Shown here piece by piece: positions 47,530-61,240 of a stretch of DNA of 64,000 bases. The notes beneath the pieces are model-generated. The model saw only the letters and a list, made by a program, of their open reading frames with translations. It had not been told where the DNA came from and searched no databases. Position 1 is the first letter of the stretch. The number at the start of each line of letters is the position of its first letter. The stretch is taken from the NCBI RefSeq assembly GCF_001707755.1, contig NZ_MBDL01000001.1, forward strand, positions 496,001-560,000, read 5' to 3'. This DNA comes from Acinetobacter celticus. GTDB taxonomy: Bacteria; Pseudomonadota; Gammaproteobacteria; Pseudomonadales; Moraxellaceae. Both the position numbers and the translations under genes were made by a program.

Positions 47530-50500
47530 TTATATTTCATCCTCATGATCTTGGTGTGAACTACAACTACAGTTAAACTCAAAATCATCATCTTCATTTC
47601 CATCATCTAATGACACAGTCCAGTCATCATCAGTACCAATGAGAATGTCATGATTTTCATTATTGGATGTATTCATTCGTTGAGTTCGACCATGTTTATC
47701 TAAGGTTCCAGAAACATAGGTATTATTTTCATTATTGATTAATTTATATCGAACATTTGAAAAATCGGCATTATAGAATAAGTCATAAAAATCCCATTTA
47801 TTTGTGAATACATTCTTGTTATTCCTAGGTAAGGAAACAATCTCTGCTTTGATTTCCTTCCCCCCCACAAAACTATGCTGCCCTGCCTTGCTTTCAAACT
47901 TGCCACCTGTTGTAGTAAATATACCGTCCCCATTAATTCTTAGTTGCGAACCACCTGCCGTCAGTACAATTTCCTTTGGGCTGGTTAACTCAATCTTGTC
48001 TTCTGTTGAAATTAACTTAATCACTTTACGAGCAATAATTTCAATTGCATCATCTTGCGCTTGTAGCTCAACTTTGCCCTTTGCAGCATAAGCACTTAAC
48101 CCTTTTTGAGCCGCAAATAAACTCACTTTGTCCTGCGTATGCATAACAATATTTTTTTGCGCACTGACATTGACTGAACCCTGTGCACTTTGCGCAATAT
48201 CCTGTGAGGCTTGTAAAATAATGTCTTCTGGAGTCGTTAAAGCAATGCCATTTGGGGATGCCAATAACATTAATGCCTGACGAAATAACTTACCTTGCTC
48301 CAATTGCTTAGGATTACTGGAACTTTCCAACTCTTGTGCATAACCATCCATAAAGCTTTTAACATGCTCTAATGCTTTCATTGGCGTAAAAATTTCTGGC
48401 TGACCAAAACCACCTATGATTAAATCCTCAGGGTTAATTTCAATCTCTTCAACAATCTTACTAACCTCCTTTAATACGCTCAACGGATCATCTTTTAACT
48501 GATGTCTTAAACGGCTAATACGCACCTGCAGCTGGTCAGCCCCATGATCCTCTAAGTTCTGAATCACCTCTTTTAGATTATTAAAAGCTTCTTCTGTATC
48601 ATTAAAATATGCCTTAAATTGCTGGATCGTGCCTGTAGTATCTTGGGTGATTGAGCCAATATCTTGGATAAAACCTTTACAGTTTTTCAATGCACTCAAT
48701 GGGTCTCGCCTCAAATCATCCTTAAATAAATTTAAGGTGGCCAACATTGCTTGTGAGCTACTTTTGAGTTCTAAGGATTGTATAAGCTTCGGTAAACGGC
48801 CAATCACATTTAATGCATCACTTTGCTGTTTCACTGCAATGCCACTCAGTATTTTCATACTCTCATTGCCTTGATTCAGCAAAGATTGCGCCTGCGTAGC
48901 ATCCAAATGATCTGCAATTGCATGTTCCTGAGCATAGGTACTAATTAGCATGCCTTTGCCTGCGCGAACTGCGCCATATGCATCGGTTCTTAATTCAAAA
49001 CCTTCACCTCGCCCATGACTACTTTCACTGTCTTTGGGATGACTGAGGTTACCCAAATTTAATTGACTCGCACCGTGACTACTTTGCAATTGGGTACTAA
49101 TTTGGCCTGTCGTATCATCAAAGCGAAGTTGATTGAAACCTGCCCCTCTAACCTCTTGTGAACGAATGCCACTTAGTTTTTGAGTATCTGGAAGCTGACC
49201 TTTCATATCAAACATGGTTTGATGACGTTCCGCTTCGTGAATCCGCCCAACAACAAAAGGGCGATCTCCATCGCCCTCAAAAAAGTCAATCACCACAATT
49301 TCACCAACTCGTGGATGAAAACGTGCCCCATAACCTTCACCTGCCCATGGCGTTAATACATCGACCCAAGCAGAATCTGTATCATTGTCATTGCTTCCAG
49401 CACCGCCATCATGGCTATGGTCATCATTACGGGTAAATAAAAACCGAACTTTTATTCGCCCCCAAGCATCCACATGAATACTTTCACCTTCAGGCCCCAC
49501 CACTTTAGCCCGTTGCGGATAAGCAATGGTACGGTGTTGTATCGGATCATATTCAGGAACAATGGCCACATGACGGCGCACCACATATAATTCGTTGGCT
49601 TGACGTTCATCGCCCAAAGATGTCCAGCGACTTGTACTGAGCAATTGATCCAACTGTGCCAAAATATCTTTAGGTAAATTATTTTGGTTATAAAAAGTTT
49701 TGCCTAAAATTAAAAACTCTCGGTCTGAACCTTGATGCTGATTAATTTCAGGATGATCTTGTAGTTCAAACCAATAACCAACCTGCGCATCACGTACACT
49801 GCTCTGCACCCTAAAATATTTAGACTGTAATTCTTGATATTGATTCAATTGCTGATTCAACTGCTCTAATTGCCCTGAATGTGCGGTTGTGGCTTGATCT
49901 TCGCCATTTAAATCGGTTGTCCATGCTGAACTAACCGTCCACGCCTGTTCTAAACTTAAAGTTTCATTGTCTTGTGCATCACTGTGTTGATGTGCACTTA
50001 ACATCGGGCTAGATTGATCTTGTGCTAATGTTTGAGCTTGCCAACGTTGAGTCTGAATAATAGCGGACTGCAAAGAACGCTGTGCCACAAAACTGGTGAT
50101 GGTATCTAAGCATTCAGTTGCATGACTCCGATGAAAGCGTATGGACTGGCGCTCAAGCGCTTCAAAGGATTGATTACAATCGATTAACCGTAATTTCTGT
50201 GCCTGCATCGGCTCAATCGAAGCTGGAACCATCAAGGTCGCTTCATCAATTAACCAGTTAATGCCCTCACTGCGCCACAGTCGGGTTAAAAATGCATAAT
50301 CGGTTTCATTGGCCTGCATAACAAAAGGGCGTACTGCATAATCACGGCTCAATCCTGCCAAATTCAAACTTAGACTTGAAGCAAATAACGCACTTTTATG
50401 TTGCCATTCGCTAAAGAGTATTTCCGTAATCTCTGGCACGCTTTTATTCATAAAAACACGACTGTTACGGCGCTTATGCCACAGTGCCGTCGCATCCTCA

Positions 50501-50826
50501 ATAACCAACTTATAAAGAGTCAGCGCACCATCACTCTGGCCTTGACTTGCACCCGTAATTATCCCAGTCATGCGATAAAGCTGACCAGTATCGGTCACTT
50601 GATCAATCGCAACACGTACGCCAATAAATTGCTTGAGCAGAATATAAGCATGTGTAGATAAACAAATAACTTCGGCACGTAAGCCTTGATTGATTTGATG
50701 TTGACCTTCTATACGCTGAAGAAAAACTTGTGGGTTTAAAGTTTCATTTGAAAACTGAATATGCAAAGCGCGCTTTTGTACACTCAGCCCAAAAGTCTCA
50801 ATGAGGGAATAAATATTATTAATCAT
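47530..50826 (-). CDS. vgrG: Type VI secretion spike protein VgrG with helical insertion and C-terminal extension
   Basis: 1098 residues. The N-terminal 560 or so form the gp27/gp5-like VgrG core, including the OB fold (AWGRIKVRFLFTRNDD, GYGARFHPRVGEIVVIDFFE) and GIRSQEVRGAGFNQLRFDDT. DUF2345 begins about 610 (DAYGAVRAGKGMLIST) but is split by a helical insertion of about 200 residues (640-845) that contains an internal repeat, LRRDPLSALKN near 703 and LKDDPLSVLKE near 776. DUF2345 then resumes (LASPNGIALTTPEDIILQAS) up to about 955. A transthyretin-like domain follows (about 1003-1075: YVSGTLDKHGRTQRM), probably the effector-binding module, and an acidic Cys/His tail closes the protein. It trimerises at the tip of the T6SS needle. 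No other T6SS structural gene lies in the window, so this is an orphan vgrG island. The ribosome site is weak. Confidence 0.93.
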   Translation of the reverse strand: MINNIYSLIETFGLSVQKRALHIQFSNETLNPQVFLQRIEGQHQINQGLRAEVICLSTHAYILLKQFIGVRVAIDQVTDTGQLYRMTGIITGASQGQSDGALTLYKLVIEDATALWHKRRNSRVFMNKSVPEITEILFSEWQHKSALFASSLSLNLAGLSRDYAVRPFVMQANETDYAFLTRLWRSEGINWLIDEATLMVPASIEPMQAQKLRLIDCNQSFEALERQSIRFHRSHATECLDTITSFVAQRSLQSAIIQTQRWQAQTLAQDQSSPMLSAHQHSDAQDNETLSLEQAWTVSSAWTTDLNGEDQATTAHSGQLEQLNQQLNQYQELQSKYFRVQSSVRDAQVGYWFELQDHPEINQHQGSDREFLILGKTFYNQNNLPKDILAQLDQLLSTSRWTSLGDERQANELYVVRRHVAIVPEYDPIQHRTIAYPQRAKVVGPEGESIHVDAWGRIKVRFLFTRNDDHSHDGGAGSNDNDTDSAWVDVLTPWAGEGYGARFHPRVGEIVVIDFFEGDGDRPFVVGRIHEAERHQTMFDMKGQLPDTQKLSGIRSQEVRGAGFNQLRFDDTTGQISTQLQSSHGASQLNLGNLSHPKDSESSHGRGEGFELRTDAYGAVRAGKGMLISTYAQEHAIADHLDATQAQSLLNQGNESMKILSGIAVKQQSDALNVIGRLPKLIQSLELKSSSQAMLATLNLFKDDLRRDPLSALKNCKGFIQDIGSITQDTTGTIQQFKAYFNDTEEAFNNLKEVIQNLEDHGADQLQVRISRLRHQLKDDPLSVLKEVSKIVEEIEINPEDLIIGGFGQPEIFTPMKALEHVKSFMDGYAQELESSSNPKQLEQGKLFRQALMLLASPNGIALTTPEDIILQASQDIAQSAQGSVNVSAQKNIVMHTQDKVSLFAAQKGLSAYAAKGKVELQAQDDAIEIIARKVIKLISTEDKIELTSPKEIVLTAGGSQLRINGDGIFTTTGGKFESKAGQHSFVGGKEIKAEIVSLPRNNKNVFTNKWDFYDLFYNADFSNVRYKLINNENNTYVSGTLDKHGRTQRMNTSNNENHDILIGTDDDWTVSLDDGNEDDDFEFNCSCSSHQDHEDEI

Positions 50827-53796: not shown

Positions 53797-54621
53797 TTAC
53801 CATGACAATTTGTACTGATCCAATTCATGTGGAATCACGTCAGCATGTTCTTGAAAATCTCGCAAAATATCATTTTTAATCGAGGCCAAACGGTAATCTT
53901 CACGCTTACGCGGTCGTTCTAAATGCACAGGAACAATCCGTTTAATCCGCCCGGGATGCGGTTGCATCACCACCACCCGATCCCCTAAAAGCACAGCTTC
54001 TTCTACATCATGGGTCACTAAAATGGTGGTGATTTTTTCAGACTGCCAAATACGTTGTAGCTCTTGTTGTAAATTGGCACGGGTTAAGGCATCTAGTGCC
54101 CCAAAAGGCTCATCCAACAGCAAAATTTGTGGACGATTCACCAAACTACGGGCAATCGCCACGCGCTGACTCATGCCTCCAGACAATTGGCTTGGATAGG
54201 CTTTTTTGAATGCACTGAGTTGTACCAAATTAAGGTGATAATCAATTAATTCCTGCTTTTCAGTTTTAGACAGTGGACTCTTTTCAAGTGCTAACGCCAC
54301 ATTCTGTTCGACATTCAGCCATGGAAAGAGTCGGTGATCTTGAAAAACAATACCGCGGTCTAAACTGGTACCTTGAATGGGCTGACCATCAATTAAAATA
54401 CGGCCTTGAAAGTCTGCATCCAAACCCACCAATAAGCGCAAGAGCGTTGATTTTCCGCAACCACTGTTGCCCACAATACTAATAAACTCACCTGGCTGAA
54501 TATTTAAATTAATCTGCTCAAGCACTTGTAAGTCTTCTCCCGCATGGGGGAAAAATTTATCTAATTTCTGAATCTCAACATGACCCAAAATATTGACTGG
54601 CTGATTCATTTGATACCTCAA
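53797..54621 (-). CDS. Sulfonate/sulfate-ester ABC transporter ATP-binding protein
   Basis: 274 residues of the nitrate/taurine/sulfonate (SsuB/TauB) branch. Walker A GNSGCGKST, signature LSGGMSQR and Walker B ILLLDEPFGALD are intact. The start overlaps the stop of the permease gene by 4 bp (ATGA), a sign of tight coupling. It powers uptake through the two permeases upstream. AtsC or SsuB could be its name; sequence alone does not decide. Confidence 0.9.
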   Translation of the reverse strand: MRYQMNQPVNILGHVEIQKLDKFFPHAGEDLQVLEQINLNIQPGEFISIVGNSGCGKSTLLRLLVGLDADFQGRILIDGQPIQGTSLDRGIVFQDHRLFPWLNVEQNVALALEKSPLSKTEKQELIDYHLNLVQLSAFKKAYPSQLSGGMSQRVAIARSLVNRPQILLLDEPFGALDALTRANLQQELQRIWQSEKITTILVTHDVEEAVLLGDRVVVMQPHPGRIKRIVPVHLERPRKREDYRLASIKNDILRDFQEHADVIPHELDQYKLSW

Positions 54622-55385
54622 GTTTTTTTATTCACGGCCTGACGCCAGCGTAAATTATAATTTTCGAAAAACTGAGCTGCTTTGGAAAATAGCAACCCTA
54701 CTACCGCAATCACGGCCATGCCATACAATACGACTTCCATTTTAAATAAATTCTGCCCGTCCAAAATTGGGTTCACTACACCAACGGCCGAGACAAAGAA
54801 ATATTCTGCGCCCACGGTGGCTACCCAAGAAAACACCAACGCAATATTTAAGCCTGCAAAAATACTCGGGGCTGCTGCCGGTAAAATGACTTTAAAGAAG
54901 GTGCTGACAGGACTCAATTGGAAAATCTGTGCCACTTCCTTAATTTTATTGGGCACATTTTTTACTCCATCATAGGTATTAAAAAACACGGGATAGAACA
55001 CCACCAAAGCAATGAAAATCACTTTGGATAATTCACCATGACCAAACCACATGATCATAAGAGGAATCCATGCAAAAACCGCGACATGCTTAATGGCATT
55101 TAAGGTCGGTGAGAAAAACCGATCTAGCCAGACATTTAAACCCAATAGTAGGCCCAAACCAGCACCAATCACGCCACCCACAATAAAACCTGTGGTATTG
55201 CGCAACAAACTGGCAATCACATTTTCATATAGTTCACCAGATTGAAGCCCGTCTAAAAATGCCAGCCAAACCTGTTTCGGTAGGGGTAATAGTGCAGGGT
55301 CGATCCATTGCTTTACTGTTACCCATGACCACAACCCAAATAAAATCAGTGGAATCACTGCACCACGGTAATCAAGTTTTTTCAT
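54618..55385 (-). CDS. ABC transporter permease, second subunit
   Basis: 255 residues with six membrane helices and the BPD_transp_1 fold; the EAA-type loop reads IKEVAQIFQLSPVSTFFKVI, then LPAAAPSIFAGL. It belongs to the SsuC/TauC family. It overlaps the ATPase gene by 4 bp and lies 12 bp after the first permease gene. Having two different permease genes implies a heterodimeric channel; in Pseudomonas putida AtsB both halves are fused in one protein. Confidence 0.88.
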   Translation of the reverse strand: MKKLDYRGAVIPLILFGLWSWVTVKQWIDPALLPLPKQVWLAFLDGLQSGELYENVIASLLRNTTGFIVGGVIGAGLGLLLGLNVWLDRFFSPTLNAIKHVAVFAWIPLMIMWFGHGELSKVIFIALVVFYPVFFNTYDGVKNVPNKIKEVAQIFQLSPVSTFFKVILPAAAPSIFAGLNIALVFSWVATVGAEYFFVSAVGVVNPILDGQNLFKMEVVLYGMAVIAVVGLLFSKAAQFFENYNLRWRQAVNKKT

Positions 55386-55397
55386 TCACTCACCTGT

Positions 55398-56243
55398 TTA
55401 TTGGGCTTTGTCCCAGCCACGAAATTGTTTTTGTAAAAGGCTGATTAACACATCAAAACCAAAACCCACCAAACCAATCACAATGACTGTGGCCATGACA
55501 ACATCTAGCTGGAAAATTTGACGGCCATAGACCATGACATAGCCGATGCCTTCACTAGATGCCAAGAGTTCTACCGCCACCAACGCGCCCCATGCACTGG
55601 CCAACGATAAGCGCAAGCCACCAATAAAACTTAAAAATGCACCCGGTAAAACCAAGTTTTTAAACTTTGACCAGGTGCCCAATTGATAGACCTGCGCCAC
55701 TTCAGTTAAGGGCTGTGGAATATTACGAACCCCTTTAAAGACATTAATGGTCATCGGCACCAACGCCGCTTTGGCGATCAGGATAATTTTTAAAGCTTCG
55801 TCAATTCCGACCACTAAAATCAGTAAGGGAATCCAGCCGACAATTGGCACCAAATTAATGACTTTAAAGGTTGGCCAAATATAGGCTTCGGCGCGACGCG
55901 ATAAACCCATCGTCAAACCCAAAACTATGGCCAGCAAGATGCCTGCGCTGAATCCATATGCAATACGAGTTAAACTGACCCGAAGATTGCTCCATAACTC
56001 ACCGCTACTGTATAAATCCTTCAACGCTGTCCAGACCAATTCGGGCGCAGGTAACAACAACGGATTCACCCAGTTTTTTGCCACAGAAACCTGCCACAAC
56101 CAAAGCAACGCAAGAGGGAAAATAAGGCCAACGCCCCACTGTACTATGTGACTTTGCCTCAGCCATGCCCCAATAGTTTGGGTGCTTTGTACCGTGGATT
56201 GCGGTTCTGATTTAGCCACACCGAATTCAAGTTCTTGTAACAT
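55398..56243 (-). CDS. ABC transporter permease, first subunit
   Basis: 281 residues from the ATG at 56243 (MLQELEFGVAKSEPQ), which has an AAGGAG ribosome site; a longer frame begins at 56303 inside the binding-protein gene and is not needed. Six membrane helices, with the coupling loop LTEVAQVYQLGTWSKFKNLV, then LPGAFLSFIGGL. Paralogue of the other permease. It follows the binding-protein gene by 29 bp. Confidence 0.88.
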   Translation of the reverse strand: MLQELEFGVAKSEPQSTVQSTQTIGAWLRQSHIVQWGVGLIFPLALLWLWQVSVAKNWVNPLLLPAPELVWTALKDLYSSGELWSNLRVSLTRIAYGFSAGILLAIVLGLTMGLSRRAEAYIWPTFKVINLVPIVGWIPLLILVVGIDEALKIILIAKAALVPMTINVFKGVRNIPQPLTEVAQVYQLGTWSKFKNLVLPGAFLSFIGGLRLSLASAWGALVAVELLASSEGIGYVMVYGRQIFQLDVVMATVIVIGLVGFGFDVLISLLQKQFRGWDKAQ

Positions 56244-56272
56244 CTGTTCCGCTCCTTTCGCAGGCCAATGGC

Positions 56273-57340
56273 TTATTTTCCACTGGCATTTAAAGGCGTC
56301 CAAAAATTCTGTAAGTTTTGGCTCTTTAACGCATTATTGACATATTTCGGCTCAATCCAGCTGTCGACATCAATCGTGCCTCGGATGAGTTTCAAGTCCT
56401 GTCCTGCTTTCAGCTTTTGCTTAATTAAAGACACGTTATAAGCATCAAGAATCGGTGCGCTGTGCGCTTTTAAATCGACACCTGAATTGGCACGAACAAA
56501 GGTGTTATAAGACAATCCCGATTTCGACCACAATTTAAATAATGCTTCACGGTTACTGGCTTGGCTTTCCCATGCGGCCTGTTTGACCAGTACATTTACG
56601 ACACGCTGTACAGTTTCAGGATATTTTTGTTCAAACTTAGAACTCACCAAAATGTAGCCTGAACTTTGTAGCTGGCTCGGCTCTTTTTTCGAACTGTAAA
56701 TGATTTTCGCAATACCGCGGTCAACCACTGGAAATATCGACTGATTAGTGAAAATGGCATCGACATCCCCACTGGCTAAAGCGGCATATCCCACAGGGCC
56801 ATCGACATTAACAAAACGGAAGTCTTTTTCAGTTAAGCCATATTTTTTGATGATTTGATACAGTCCGAGATGAATACTGGTACCGCGAAAGAAACCGATC
56901 CGCTTGCCTTTCAAATCAGCCCATGTCTTCGCTTGAGAATCTGGGGCGACGGCCAAATAGGTATTATCATGTGAACCGCCGACTGCAATCAATTTAGTAT
57001 CTAGGCGACTGGCCTTGCCTATCAGTGTCGGCAAATCTCCTAACCACGTAATATCAACTAAACCATTGGCATAGGATTCATTAATGGCAGGACCTGCACC
57101 TTTAAAGTTATTCCACTGCACTTTAATGCCATCTTTTTGGAATTCTTTTTCAATTAAGCCCAAGGTTTGCGTGGTGGCATAATAACTACCATACCCCACG
57201 GGACGGTTACCACTGCCAACATAAGGTGATGCCAAACGAATCACACTGGGCTTTGCTTCGGTAGCCATCACCTGTACAGCAGGCACCAAAGTGGCTGCAA
57301 CAACAACACCTGTAAATAAAATCTTAGTCCACTTGTACAT
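56273..57340 (-). CDS. Sulfonate/sulfate-ester-binding periplasmic protein (SsuA/AtsR-like)
   Basis: 355 residues with a signal peptide (MYKWTKILFTGVVVAATLVP... ending QVMATEA). The two-lobed NMT1/SsuA-type fold is suggested by GLVDITWLGDLPTLIGKASR, AVAPDSQAKTWADLKGKRIG and ALASGDVDAIFTNQSIFP. The nearby AtsK-like dioxygenase suggests sulfate esters rather than taurine as ligand, but sulfonates remain possible. It captures the substrate in the periplasm for the two permeases. Confidence 0.87.
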   Translation of the reverse strand: MYKWTKILFTGVVVAATLVPAVQVMATEAKPSVIRLASPYVGSGNRPVGYGSYYATTQTLGLIEKEFQKDGIKVQWNNFKGAGPAINESYANGLVDITWLGDLPTLIGKASRLDTKLIAVGGSHDNTYLAVAPDSQAKTWADLKGKRIGFFRGTSIHLGLYQIIKKYGLTEKDFRFVNVDGPVGYAALASGDVDAIFTNQSIFPVVDRGIAKIIYSSKKEPSQLQSSGYILVSSKFEQKYPETVQRVVNVLVKQAAWESQASNREALFKLWSKSGLSYNTFVRANSGVDLKAHSAPILDAYNVSLIKQKLKAGQDLKLIRGTIDVDSWIEPKYVNNALKSQNLQNFWTPLNASGK

Positions 57341-57373
57341 CTCTAACTTTCCTCTGAATTTGATTTTTAAAAT

Positions 57374-58855
57374 TTAGAAACCGTATTGAAGCTGTGCGAC
57401 CAGCTCGTTATATGTCTTATTGGTAATTTCATTATTGACGCGGTTTACATTCACTTGTAACTTGGTGGTTTCTGCAAAAAATGCATTCAGCCCTAAGCTG
57501 TGAATATCAATGGTTTGATTCGATGCATTGGTGTCACGATCAATACTGTCAAAGCGGTAAAACGCTTGATAAGACTTTGGCCACCAGTCGTCATAGCGAC
57601 CTTGGTTACGAAACCCTTTGACAAATTGTTCACCAAAATTCCAAAACAATGTGCCGGTATGTGATTCACTTTCGCGCGTATACACCGTTGCCGTTGAATT
57701 GCTATAGGTCTCATCTTCACCTTGTACATATTCATAGGTGGCGCCAAAAGGATGATGGTTATAATAAATATCAAAACCTTTCCGTAACACATCGCCTTTG
57801 CCAGCAAAAGATGCTGAAACACCTGAGGTATCAAACAAATTGCTCTTGCCTTGATACCATGACACGCCAAAACTCAGTTCACGCAACCATGAGTTGTATT
57901 GCGCAGGCAAGGTATAGCGCAGGCGACCAATAAAGTTTTTATCGTCATTGTCATCCGACTTATTGGCGCCATTACCATTCACTAAACCAAAGGCATAACT
58001 GATCATTGGCGAACGGTAGTTGTAGCCATAATCGACCGTTGGTAAGGCATCACCACGGACAATTAGCCCGACTTCACGCAGTGCCAAGCCATAGCCATAG
58101 CCAGGCAAACTAAATAAGGCATTGTTGATGGTCGGTTTTAAATCTTCCGTGGCTTGTACTTCTTGTCCAAAAGGCAATAACTGTTGCCCCAAAGTCACAG
58201 TCAAACGCCCTGTATCTGCACTGAAAGTTGGAAGTACGTTATAAATCAGCTGCGCATCTAATAAATTCAGATAACTATTATTGGTTCCTGTTTGTGGCGA
58301 AGTTCCGAAACGCAAATTAAAATCTAGGTTTTTTCCCTGTTCATAATCTTTAAACAGGTTCCCTGCAAAGCCAATTTGTACTGCACCTAAATCAAACGAT
58401 GAACGACGATTATTCACCGCAGAACCCGTATTTTGACCTTGCGGTTGTACCACTTGGGGTTCATCGATATAAGATGCTTTGGCCTGCACCACTCCATTAA
58501 TCAGCAATTGACGGGTGGATAATGCTGTTTTGGTATCACGTTCACGTTGGACTTGGTATTTATAGTTTTCAATATCACTCTGTAGCCCTTGCAATTCTGC
58601 TCGGGTCACAAAGCTTTGATCATCTTCCCCTTCTGATGCCAATTCAGCATCCACACTGTCGGCATCAGCTGACACGGCTACTATTTGGCTCTGCCCCTGT
58701 ATACGGCTCAACTCAGTCTTCAATTGCTTAAGTGACTGCTCAAGCTGGCTGACTTGTTGCTGTAACTGCGCGACATCTGTATCTGCATGGCTTATAGCAA
58801 TGCTGGCACTCAGTAAGGTCAATACACCTGCACTTTTTGTTATAAATTTTTTCAT
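57374..58855 (-). CDS. Outer-membrane porin with N-terminal coiled coil
   Basis: 493 residues from the ATG at 58855 (MKKFITKSAGVLTLLSASIA, signal peptide ending SHA). The longer frame from 58891 overlaps the Mop gene and is rejected. Mature residues about 1-45 form heptads (QLQQQVSQLEQSLKQLKTEL), as in trimeric OprO/OprP-like and related porins. The rest is a beta barrel ending VAQLQYGF with C-terminal Phe. It may let sulfate esters or sulfonates cross the outer membrane, since it lies between the Mop gene and the binding-protein gene, 33 bp from the latter. Confidence 0.83.
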   Translation of the reverse strand: MKKFITKSAGVLTLLSASIAISHADTDVAQLQQQVSQLEQSLKQLKTELSRIQGQSQIVAVSADADSVDAELASEGEDDQSFVTRAELQGLQSDIENYKYQVQRERDTKTALSTRQLLINGVVQAKASYIDEPQVVQPQGQNTGSAVNNRRSSFDLGAVQIGFAGNLFKDYEQGKNLDFNLRFGTSPQTGTNNSYLNLLDAQLIYNVLPTFSADTGRLTVTLGQQLLPFGQEVQATEDLKPTINNALFSLPGYGYGLALREVGLIVRGDALPTVDYGYNYRSPMISYAFGLVNGNGANKSDDNDDKNFIGRLRYTLPAQYNSWLRELSFGVSWYQGKSNLFDTSGVSASFAGKGDVLRKGFDIYYNHHPFGATYEYVQGEDETYSNSTATVYTRESESHTGTLFWNFGEQFVKGFRNQGRYDDWWPKSYQAFYRFDSIDRDTNASNQTIDIHSLGLNAFFAETTKLQVNVNRVNNEITNKTYNELVAQLQYGF

Positions 58856-58868
58856 GGAAACGGTGCAC

Positions 58869-59138
58869 CTACAGCTTGGCAAGTGACACATCGGTCGATT
58901 TAATCAGCACAATCACTTGACTGCCGACCTGTAAATCCAATTCTTCAACTGAACGAGTGGTTATGACGGAAGTAAAAACACCCGATGCTGTCACGACATC
59001 CACTTCAGAAACTACATCTCCTTTGACAATTTCCTGAATAGTGCCTTTAATTTGATTACGTACATTAATAGATTGAATAGTCATTTTAAATTCCTGATTT
59101 TTTGTTAGAAACCAATATGACCTATTTACTAAACCCAT
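58869..59138 (-). CDS. ssuF: SsuF-like molybdopterin-binding (TOBE/Mop) protein
   Basis: 89 residues, or about 71 from the second ATG at 59084 (MTIQSINVRNQIKGTIQEIV). A single TOBE/Mop domain is seen: NQIKGTIQEIVKGDVVSEVD, then VITTRSVEELDLQVGSQVIV and LIKSTDVSLAKL. Mop proteins bind molybdate or molybdopterin. In Pseudomonas putida the equivalent SsuF is needed for growth on sulfonates, and its presence here supports a sulfur-scavenging role for this cluster. The start at 59084 has the better ribosome site (AGGAATTTAAA). It is the first gene of the transport operon, 29-83 bp downstream of a perfect palindrome. Confidence 0.82.
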   Translation of the reverse strand: MGLVNRSYWFLTKNQEFKMTIQSINVRNQIKGTIQEIVKGDVVSEVDVVTASGVFTSVITTRSVEELDLQVGSQVIVLIKSTDVSLAKL

Positions 59139-59166
59139 AAAAATAATATAATTTGATTTTTATATC

Positions 59167-59182
59167 TGATTTTATAAAATCA
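59167..59182. promoter_or_regulatory. Palindromic operator candidate for the Crp/Fnr regulator
   Basis: TGATTTTATAAAATCA is a perfect 16-bp palindrome upstream of the Mop-porin-ABC operon. Half-site spacing (TGATT-N6-AATCA) equals that of CRP sites (TGTGA-N6-TCACA). The gene for a Crp/Fnr-type regulator ends 13 bp upstream. Confidence 0.65.
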
Positions 59183-59194
59183 TAAAAAGTGATT

Positions 59195-59893
59195 TTAAAT
59201 TCTATTTATCTGATATTTCAAATATTCATAATTTTTAATAATAATATTTTCATACTGCCAAAAAATCACATCCTGAGAAGTTAAACTCTTAATCTCTTTA
59301 TTAATGGTTTGCCTAGAAGAAGATAATAAATCAGCCAAATCATGCTGTGAAATTTTCAATCTAATTTCGGTACCTAAAGGATGCTTTTGACCATATTGAT
59401 GAGACAAGTCGAGTAAGGTTTTACAAATTTTTTGGTGCAAATTAGCAACTTGCAAAAACTTCATTTGCTGTAAAAGATATTGCATGCGCAGGCTCAAAAT
59501 ATCTAAAGCATCTTGCTTTAAAGCATTGTTATTACCAATTTCTTTTGAAAAAATAGCGATCGGAATATGCAAGATTTTAACTTGATTAAACGCATAATAA
59601 TCATAATCAATGACCTGTTCATTGATACACGCCAGTAAATTAATCGGACTTTTTTCTGAAAAATAATTAAAGGCATGAAAACGACCCGATGGACTTAAAT
59701 ATCCAATTTGGATAATTCCATCGAGTAAAATATAAACAGCATCTCTACAATTTTCTTTGTTTAATATTAAATCACCTTTTTGATATTTTTTTATAAATGA
59801 CATTTTTAAAATAAAATTAATTTCATGCTCAGATAAATTTTTAAATATATTTTTTAAAACCTGACCATTCGTCTGATCTTTTAAATCATGCAT
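59195..59893 (-). CDS. Crp/Fnr-family transcriptional regulator
   Basis: 232 residues. Residues about 15-130 form a cyclic-nucleotide-binding-type beta roll (KGDLILNKENCRDAVYILLD, split before GIIQIGYLSPSGR). The helix-turn-helix is about 175-210 (SQHDLADLLSSSRQTINKEI). It lacks the N-terminal cysteine cluster of FNR and the full set of cAMP ligands of CRP, so the signal is unknown. Codon use is more AT-rich than its neighbours. It lies directly upstream of the Mop operon and downstream of the dioxygenase gene, with palindromes on both sides. It is a likely activator of sulfur-source genes, an unusual type of regulator for this role. Confidence 0.85.
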   Translation of the reverse strand: MHDLKDQTNGQVLKNIFKNLSEHEINFILKMSFIKKYQKGDLILNKENCRDAVYILLDGIIQIGYLSPSGRFHAFNYFSEKSPINLLACINEQVIDYDYYAFNQVKILHIPIAIFSKEIGNNNALKQDALDILSLRMQYLLQQMKFLQVANLHQKICKTLLDLSHQYGQKHPLGTEIRLKISQHDLADLLSSSRQTINKEIKSLTSQDVIFWQYENIIIKNYEYLKYQINRI

Positions 59894-59904
59894 TTTGATT
59901 ATTC

Positions 59905-59941
59905 ATCCATCTAATACTTTTAATATGCATATTAGATGGAT
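59905..59941. repeat. 12-bp perfect inverted repeat upstream of the Crp/Fnr gene
   Basis: ATCCATCTAATA at 59905-59916 and TATTAGATGGAT at 59930-59941, separated by 13 bases. The inner part also contains the palindrome AATATGCATATT. It lies 11 bp before the regulator start and 78 bp after the dioxygenase stop. No T run follows on either strand, so an operator or RNA hairpin is more likely than a terminator. Confidence 0.75.
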
Positions 59942-60018
59942 TATTTTGGACAGACGAATCATTTATTCTTCATTGGTTTTCGCTTTATCTGCAAAGCTTG
60001 TCAATGAATCTGCTTTTA

Positions 60019-60960
60019 TTATGAAACTTTTTTATAAGCGCCTTCAGCTACAACATAACGGAAATCCGATACATCACGCTTTACGTCTTTACGAATGACT
60101 TGACTCAATTGACCATCAACACCGACTGGAATATCGCCTTCCAAAGTGACACGACGCACCACACGGTGCTGATCACCATAATCATTAATTGCACGGTGCT
60201 GCGTTGCGCGGTTATCCCAAATGGCAACGTCACCTGCTTCCCAGCGCCAGCTGACAATATTTTCCAACTTTTCGACATAGTTCTGAAATAAGTCAAATAA
60301 ACGGCGTGAATCTGCGGCACTATAGCCGACAAATTTTTTGAAGAAATGTCCGAGTAATAAAGTCTTTTCACCCGTTTCTGGATGTACACGCACCAAAGGA
60401 TGCTCCGTTTCATATTCAGTCGAATTAAAAAAATCTTTATATTTTGCCAACACTTCAGCAGGTACACTGGCTTTGGCAGCATAATCATAATTGTTGCTAT
60501 GAATGGCTCTTAAGCTGTCTGCCAAAGTTTTTAACTCTTCTGGCAAATCATTATATGCCGTCGTGGTATTGGCCCAAACGGTGTTTCCCCCGACTTCTGG
60601 TGCAACAATACTGCGTAAGATTGACGCTTTTGGATAGGCATCTAAAAAAGTAATGTCGGTATGCCAACTGTCTGCACGTGCGCCACGCGAATCAAGTTCT
60701 AAAATGTGATTAGACCCTTGCTTGACAGGAACAGTCGGATGATTCAATGGTGTACCCAAACGGGTAGCAAAAGCTTCTTGCTCGGTATCATCTAAATGTG
60801 ACTGATTTTTAAAGAAAATTGCTTTATGTATCAGCAGTGCCTGATTAATTTCTTGCACCACAGCATCGTCAAGTTTTGAAGATAACGTTACGCCTTCAAT
60901 CACTGCACCAATGCGACCATTTACTGGCTTAACTTGAATGTGTTGATATTGCTTGCTCAT
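60019..60960 (-). CDS. atsK: TauD/TfdA dioxygenase, AtsK-like alkylsulfatase
   Basis: 313 residues from the ATG at 60960 (MSKQYQHIQV); the GTG at 60966 is too close to the GAGGG ribosome site. It is an Fe(II)/2-oxoglutarate dioxygenase: metal ligands H-x-D in SWHTDITFLDAYP, distal His in ATQHRAINDYG and the 2-oxoglutarate Arg in HRVVRRVTLEG. Motifs HPTVPV, FLDAYPKASILRS and VWANTTTAYNDLP resemble AtsK of Pseudomonas putida, which cleaves medium-chain alkyl sulfates to aldehyde and sulfate. TauD (taurine) is the alternative. It supplies sulfur to the cell from the substrate imported by the adjacent ABC system. Confidence 0.82.
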   Translation of the reverse strand: MSKQYQHIQVKPVNGRIGAVIEGVTLSSKLDDAVVQEINQALLIHKAIFFKNQSHLDDTEQEAFATRLGTPLNHPTVPVKQGSNHILELDSRGARADSWHTDITFLDAYPKASILRSIVAPEVGGNTVWANTTTAYNDLPEELKTLADSLRAIHSNNYDYAAKASVPAEVLAKYKDFFNSTEYETEHPLVRVHPETGEKTLLLGHFFKKFVGYSAADSRRLFDLFQNYVEKLENIVSWRWEAGDVAIWDNRATQHRAINDYGDQHRVVRRVTLEGDIPVGVDGQLSQVIRKDVKRDVSDFRYVVAEGAYKKVS

Positions 60961-61240
60961 GATCACGCCCTCATATATTGATATTGGATAGACTGGTTGT
61001 CTGTGAAGTCATCATGAACAATTTACTTATTCAAATCTGTCAAAAAATTGACATTCTTATACTGCATTTTAGATATATAAAAATTAAAAACAGCATTAAG
61101 CCCCCAAAGGAATGACCATACGATGCGGATAAAATTATCACCAAATGACTTCAATACGTCATTTTGTACCGTATCTAAGGCTTTTATTTTCCAATAAAAA
61201 AGCCCGCATCATGCGGACTCTTCTTTTACACCAAAACAGT
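60961..61240. other. Intergenic region upstream of the dioxygenase
   Basis: It holds the perfect inverted repeat TGTCAA-AAAA-TTGACA (61038-61053), about 78 bp before the dioxygenase start, and the terminator of the dehydrogenase gene at 61195-61221. No gene is seen. Confidence 0.55.
61195..61221 (-). terminator. Terminator of the dehydrogenase gene
   Basis: On the minus strand AGTCCGCA-TGA-TGCGGGCT forms an 8-bp stem (one T-G pair) followed by TTTTTTA, 20 bp after the stop. Confidence 0.85.

Follow-up and report, generated by a model that had tools for sequence, protein, structure and literature searches.

The window considered here, a 64,000-nucleotide stretch of the 3.09-Mb genome of Acinetobacter celticus (G000; contig NZ_MBDL01000001.1, positions 496,001 to 560,000), carries genes of the same kinds as the ats and ssu sulfur-scavenging clusters of Pseudomonas, together with a gene for a Crp/Fnr-type regulator. 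All of them lie on the minus strand, in the order AtsK-like Fe(II)/2-oxoglutarate dioxygenase (atsK; 60019 to 60966, with an ATG at 60960), Crp/Fnr-type regulator of 232 amino acids (aa) (crp; 59195 to 59893), Mop/SsuF-like protein (mop; 58869 to 59138), candidate outer-membrane porin (57374 to 58891), SsuA-like binding protein (56273 to 57340), ATP-binding cassette (ABC) permeases A (55398 to 56303) and B (54618 to 55385), and ABC ATPase (53797 to 54621). From mop to the ATPase gene, consecutive frames are either separated by short gaps or overlapping, and the atsK-crp and crp-mop gaps each exceed 100 bp. An earlier note, made from the open reading frames, had read these genes as one block for scavenging sulfate esters or sulfonates under the regulator; the block was confirmed at the coordinates of those frames, and its gene set recurs in 13 of the 175 genomes of the genus that were compared. 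These 13 genomes, referred to as tier 1, are those with a Crp orthologue of at least 56% identity (other listed matches reach at most 33%), and the same 13 carry orthologues of AtsK (at least 74%), Mop (at least 80%), and the binding protein (at least 74%).

Components of the Block

Domains were assigned with Pfam and NCBIfam. The dioxygenase belongs to the Pfam family TauD, and 176 of its 285 aligned residues (62%) are identical to those of Pseudomonas putida AtsK, in agreement with the assignment in the earlier note. Among proteins of solved structure AtsK is its nearest relative (390 bits), ahead of Rv3406 (315 bits) and Escherichia coli TauD (152 bits). The H-X-D...H iron triad (H102-D104-H257) is kept, as are R268 and R272, including the 2-oxoglutarate arginine, so that the enzyme has the features of a type II alkyl sulfatase and is nearer to AtsK than to TauD. 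Rv3406 shares 54% identity with AtsK, and it cleaves alkyl sulfates but does not cleave taurine (PMC3675115, in part). Unlike the genes of these two type II alkyl sulfatase systems, atsK of the window adjoins a gene for a Crp-type regulator.

The SsuA-like binding protein (NMT1), the permeases (BPD_transp_1 in each), and the ATPase (ABC_tran) together make up an Ssu/Ats-type ABC importer. The binding protein scores 129 bits against TIGR01728, under the cut-off of 163.5, and the curated cut-offs of the specific importer models are not reached, so that the assignment stops short of a substrate. Mop (TOBE/Mop) scores 57.7 bits against TIGR00638, above the curated cut-off of 55, as befits the SsuF-like protein that had been proposed, and alignment of the crp-mop region places its conserved start at the ATG at 59084. 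The claim that the block has its own porin fared less well. The gene is conserved in the clusters, with the ATG at 58855 a likelier start than that at 58891, but the protein has no Pfam family match, its PDB matches are spurious, and its structure model is unusable (mean predicted local distance difference test score, pLDDT, of 29), and for these reasons it is treated as a candidate only. In Pseudomonas, ats-type genes are under LysR control, the Mop protein is SsuF-like, and AtsRBC has a fused permease. The Acinetobacter block differs from the ats and ssu clusters, and from SfnR-type sigma-54 control, in its two separate permeases, which the earlier note had recognized, in having no sigma-54 activator, and in its predicted Crp-type control.

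The Crp-Type Regulator

The Crp/Fnr-like character of the protein encoded in mid-block is borne out by matches above cut-off to PF00027 (cNMP_binding) and PF13545 (HTH_Crp_2), and by a structure model made from nine sequences (pLDDT 84.8 for the best of five models, 76 to 44 for the others) that matches the fold of CRP, GlxR, and NtcA. These three are the best PDB matches by sequence and fold, but identity is 16-24% in the listed fold matches and the contacts to cyclic AMP (cAMP) are replaced. In CRP and Vfr the ligand is contacted by G71, E72, R82, S83, T127, and S128 (E. coli numbering); in all 13 tier-1 proteins these positions hold N, L/A, D/E, Y, L, and L/I/M. Because these contact residues are replaced, the signal is probably not cAMP. 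The Fe-S sensor of FNR has four cluster cysteines, and the protein contains three cysteines in total, C49 (in 9 of 13), C89 (invariant in tier 1), and C157 (nearly so).

In the recognition helix, R180 is kept while E181 is replaced by Q and R185 by K in 13 of 13 tier-1 proteins. Among 31 further Crp genes, picked for adjoining AtsK-like or SsuA-like genes, R180 is kept in every case and Q stands at E181 in 30. CooA, the CO-sensing member of the Crp/Fnr family, also has Q at the E181 position. Its palindrome, TGTCGGCNNGCCGACA, shares TGTC...GACA with the operator described below (PMC545781, in part). CooA has other targets and is a weak sequence match (1ft9, E 4e-4), and it is compared here on half-site and recognition helix only.

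Predicted Operator and Promoter of atsK

A palindrome, TGTCAATTTTTTGACA, lies upstream of atsK at 61038 to 61053, with no strand assigned. It is the only match in the window to the loose form TGTCA-N6-TGACA (0.13 expected) and the only match in the genome to the strict form TGTCAA-N4-TTGACA. All 13 tier-1 loci have the loose form upstream of atsK, mostly as the strict one, and in the aligned regions between atsK and the neighboring SDR gene the TGTCA and TGACA arms are invariant, the center is variable, and the flanks drift. Each locus of the 12 relatives has exactly one loose match, before atsK, although in L032 and L035 the longest called atsK frame starts upstream of it. Eleven loci of a second kind, with an atsK-crp pair and no ABC genes (L043, L048, L052-L060), likewise have one each before atsK. 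Across the 13 tier-1 genomes the strict form occurs 22 times, 11 before atsK (one of these before a second atsK-crp pair in G110), 5 before an arylsulfatase gene (atsA), and 6 before a second TauD-family gene (tauD2), against a single occurrence of the reversed pattern that served as control. The strict form is missing from G064, G119, and G151, where the site before atsK is one base off.

The site also tracks crp at five comparable loci with a linked crp, all of which have it with 1-2 mismatches, a score equaled by at most 4 of 300 base shuffles; at G136, whose comparable cluster has an AtsK-like gene but no linked crp, the best match has 5 mismatches, as in shuffles. Outside such contexts the pattern carries less information. 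Strict sites occur in 62 of the 175 genomes, and many of those read elsewhere fall inside reading frames; those recurring across species inside one conserved frame (L079, L083, L085, L087, L088, L103) were attributed to chance. Of the extra strict sites in second-kind genomes some are similar: L086, L102, and L114 lie in reading frames, and L115 is not at a known target. The genome of the window has six loose sites including the strict one; of the other five, two are inside reading frames and the remaining three fall outside the 450 bp that precede called gene starts. With two mismatches allowed, 215 sites compare with 159 for the reversed control, so that weak sites cannot be told from chance. 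A palindrome picked out by eye before mop was dropped, as it is not conserved.

Downstream of the operator lies a -10-like element, CATGAT (61011 to 61016, minus strand), whose first base is 30 bases from the operator center. A hexamer with A second and T sixth starts at this distance in 14 of 14 tier-1-type atsK promoters (counting a relic in G038), in 11 of 12 second-kind atsK promoters, and in 1 of 7 atsA promoters, the other 6 having it at 31. Pooled, 26 of 33 atsK and atsA promoters have this spacing and 6 more are one base further. By the geometry rule for class II activators, an operator thus placed, at about -41.5 as judged from the -10-like element, would sit as for a class II activator.

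Another palindrome seen by eye, before crp, is read as RNA structure, because it is conserved as a hairpin with a variable loop and wobble pairs. This stem-loop (59906 to 59940, minus strand) lies between atsK and crp and ends 12 bases before the crp start codon; its 11-bp stem recurs in 13 of 13 loci with 9-11 pairs and loops of 10-35. It may damp translation of crp. Rfam gave no match in the window between 53000 and 62500. At the matching place in second-kind loci, terminator-like hairpins were seen by eye.

Predicted Targets in Trans

Relatives of atsA at 79% identity or more occur in 7 tier-1 genomes, unlinked to the cluster, and TGTCA-N6-TGACA stands upstream in 7 of 7. The enzyme is nearest to the P. 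aeruginosa arylsulfatase 1hdh (773 bits), a further likeness to the Pseudomonas clusters. Relatives of 71-77% identity are found in 13 genomes without a tier-1 Crp, and several of these adjoin a distant Crp gene (L061, L063-L066). TauD2, to which no substrate is assigned, is present in 82 genomes, and 32 upstream regions were read. The strict site precedes tauD2 in 6 of 9 tier-1 genomes, in 1 of 10 with a separate atsK-crp pair only, and in 0 of 13 with neither. With the operator before atsK in 13 of 13 loci and shared in relatives with arylsulfatase and second dioxygenase genes, the proposal that the regulator governs the block gains strong comparative support.

Conservation Across Acinetobacter

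By AtsK, the nearest relative of the window's genome is G001 (92%). The window and 12 fetched relatives share the order SDR-atsK-crp-mop-porin-binding protein-permease A, with local exceptions: in G110 (L036) roughly 14 kb are inserted between mop and the porin gene, and its fetched stretch stops before permease B, while G119 has an additional gene between SDR and atsK. The L036 insertion encodes a TauE-type sulfite exporter, a metallo-beta-lactamase-fold protein, and a LysR regulator. In G173 (L042) crp is broken, with extra reading frames between crp and atsK, and the operator and remaining cluster are still there. In G038 (L089, 1501-1516) the operator and promoter persist between SDR and MATE genes, the cluster being gone from the locus. 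Of the 12 tier-1 relatives, 7 have an NtaA/DmoA-type flavin monooxygenase gene next to the cluster (L033-L035, L037, L038, L040, L041; that flank was not read in L036), and the window has none there. Among 341 genomes sampled from the order, the tier-1 Crp profile at 1e-25 found one, the window's own; this search did not extend to more distant Crp genes. Within the genus, such distant genes are joined in L046, L051, and L063-L066 with genes for AtsK-like and SsuA-like proteins, an arylsulfatase, TonB-dependent receptors, long permeases, and an arylsulfotransferase-like protein, and permease-like genes of about 536 aa are present in other Acinetobacter clusters.

Alternation With Sigma-54 Control

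In 14 other genomes (L204-L217) the same SDR gene, accompanied by TetR in 13 of 14, has as its neighbor a related transporter cluster with a sigma-54 activator and no Crp; Pfam Sigma54_activat was tested on L204 and the others were assigned by at least 72% identity to its activator. Of 23 sigma-54-type loci, 15 have a TTGGCA...TTG promoter ahead of the first structural gene, and in two it overlaps the called start. These clusters share with the Crp type the SDR flank, Mop (69-74% identical), and the last ATPase (68-74%), but the sigma-54 activator replaces Crp, and the porin, binding protein, and two permeases are about 33-47% identical. No sigma-54 activator was found in the block of the window or the loci of the 12 relatives. 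At Crp-type loci the strict sigma-54 promoter pattern has two matches, both inside a permease gene (L038, L040), and the relaxed pattern has one, before SDR in L032. Separate ABC clusters of other species, where a Crp operator had been expected, turned out to have sigma-54 activators instead.

A tree of SDR, TetR, and PhoB mixes both types, with 5 changes, 4 of them forced by well-supported branches, and a single clade of the Crp type is rejected (approximately unbiased test, p 3e-31); rows L036 and L205 are under half filled in this tree. With SDR as the sole gene, 2 changes are forced. When the tree is built from Crp, AtsK, and the binding protein, G173 pairs with G045, which differs from the flank tree. 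The alternation is read here as cassette exchange by recombination, with the qualification that flanking genes can recombine too. The earlier note had called the control of the block unusual. This stands in comparison with the Pseudomonas models and with the sigma-54 activator at the same locus in 14 genomes, but the arrangement is not a one-off: elsewhere in Acinetobacter more distant Crp genes adjoin genes of AtsK-like or SsuA-like type, and some of these clusters have fused permeases.

Interpretation and Alternatives

It is very probable that this is a sulfate-ester scavenging block run by a dedicated Crp-type activator with a small regulon. The comparisons support the operator, the targets, the promoter geometry, and the loss of cAMP contacts; from them we infer that the protein binds and activates in the cell, and also the signal, the substrates, and how far the transcript extends. 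The candidate porin and the ABC importer would take up alkyl sulfates, and possibly sulfonates too, and the AtsK-like dioxygenase would free the sulfur. A Crp-type dimer bound to TGTCAA-N4-TTGACA at about -41.5 of the atsK promoter would turn on atsK-crp in class II fashion, with mop, the porin, and the ABC genes switched on by read-through or from a second promoter. In relatives the protein would also switch on the unlinked atsA and tauD2, giving a small sulfate-ester regulon. The signal would likely be a sulfur-status metabolite, presumably felt under sulfur limitation, and not cAMP.

Several observations weigh against this interpretation. The 13 tier-1 genomes are related, so their counts are not independent events. 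Among nine TauD-like genes of distant Crp clusters, L046 has the site with 1 mismatch and L061 with 2, and the other seven, at 3-5, have none that is recognizable. Three tier-1 genomes (G110, G119, G173) carry tauD2 without a site. At second-kind promoters the hexamer at 32 is nearly as good (10 of 12), and at tauD2 promoters distances of 30 and 39 tie at 5 of 7. At the identity levels searched, the genome of the window yielded neither a close atsA (its best arylsulfatase is at 45%) nor tauD2, and since the strict operator occurs there once, the regulon in this genome may be the block alone. Finally, the ABC genes may be read from a different promoter, given a crp-mop gap of about 110 bp and no TGTCA-N6-TGACA site before mop.

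This last point bears on the strongest of the alternatives, in which the regulator controls atsK and itself, and the genes from mop onward are driven from a separate promoter that answers to a different protein, CysB for example. The region before mop contains a conserved A+T-rich stretch that would suit a promoter of this kind, and in sister species Mop and the last ATPase are part of the sigma-54-type cluster; but the genes lie on one strand and stay together in 13 genomes, with neither a sigma-54 promoter nor an activator at them, and the alternative is somewhat unlikely.

The protein could instead read a non-sulfur signal, such as redox or carbon state, with sulfur scavenging as a side branch. 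Known Crp/Fnr proteins sense many things, and the invariant C89 and near-invariant C157 could suit redox sensing, but the 31 other Crp genes do not share C89 and all 22 strict tier-1 sites are at sulfate-ester or TauD-family genes, which makes a signal of this kind unlikely. Less likely again is a system for sulfonates, taurine among them, in place of sulfate esters: the importer genes are SsuA/SsuC-like and 7 of the 12 relatives' loci have the flavin monooxygenase gene on a flank, but the dioxygenase is AtsK-like and the co-regulated gene in relatives encodes an arylsulfatase.

Repression of the atsK promoter when sulfur is plentiful is improbable. The right half-site, TTGACA, equals the sigma-70 -35 consensus, and a protein bound there could block polymerase, but 0 of 33 promoters have a hexamer 17 bp after TTGACA, and in 32 of 33 it lies at the class II distance or a single base beyond. 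Most improbable of all is that another protein binds the palindrome and crp is a bystander, for although the match of protein to palindrome is a prediction from sequence and G038 keeps the site with its cluster gone, the site is present at 13 tier-1 and 11 second-kind loci and absent at G136, and the R-Q recognition residues fit a TGTC half-site as in CooA.

Beyond activation of the block by its dedicated regulator, a wider proposal is offered tentatively, as one that could well prove wrong: the Crp/Fnr branch with an S-R-Q helix may be a sulfur-status sensor in many Acinetobacter, binding a sulfur metabolite and not cAMP, commanding an atsK, arylsulfatase, and second-dioxygenase regulon through TGTCAA-N4-TTGACA, and exchanged more than once, as a cassette at a single chromosomal locus, with sigma-54 control.

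Relation to Known Sulfur Control

Sulfur scavenging in model Gram-negatives is controlled by the LysR-type CysB and Cbl and by sigma-54 activators such as SfnR. If the present interpretation is true, a Crp/Fnr protein adds a third solution, for which the operator is defined, the targets are predicted, and the geometry is that of an activator. Sister species with either Crp or sigma-54 control at one and the same locus offer a natural experiment in regulator swapping with the pathway kept, and the question posed is what ligand fills a Crp pocket without cAMP contacts when sulfur runs short. The block and the reading of the earlier note hold; added here are the operator, the targets in trans, the activator geometry, the lost cAMP contacts, and the alternation with sigma-54 control.

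Another close system is the slf alkyl-sulfate operon of the Psychrobacter plasmid pP62BP1, which belongs to the same bacterial family and serves organic sulfate use, but has an AraC-type regulator and a type III (metallo-beta-lactamase-like) sulfatase (PMC3346939, in part). In the available parts of other sources, a LysR protein is listed for sulfate-starvation genes of A. baumannii (PMC5382811), the sulfur assimilation pathway of A. baylyi is induced without sulfate (PMC13352529), the ordinary Crp is discussed (PMC7315123), and a taurine cluster is mentioned (PMC2265553). Within the accessible portions of the open-access literature, subscription papers being outside this scope, no account was found of Acinetobacter controlling its use of sulfate esters or sulfonates through a Crp/Fnr protein.

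Other Features of the Window

At 47530 to 50826 lies a large reading frame of 1098 aa, presumably VgrG-like, as judged by eye. Between 44001 and 46000 the G+C content falls to 24%, against roughly 35-42% in the adjoining 2-kb steps.

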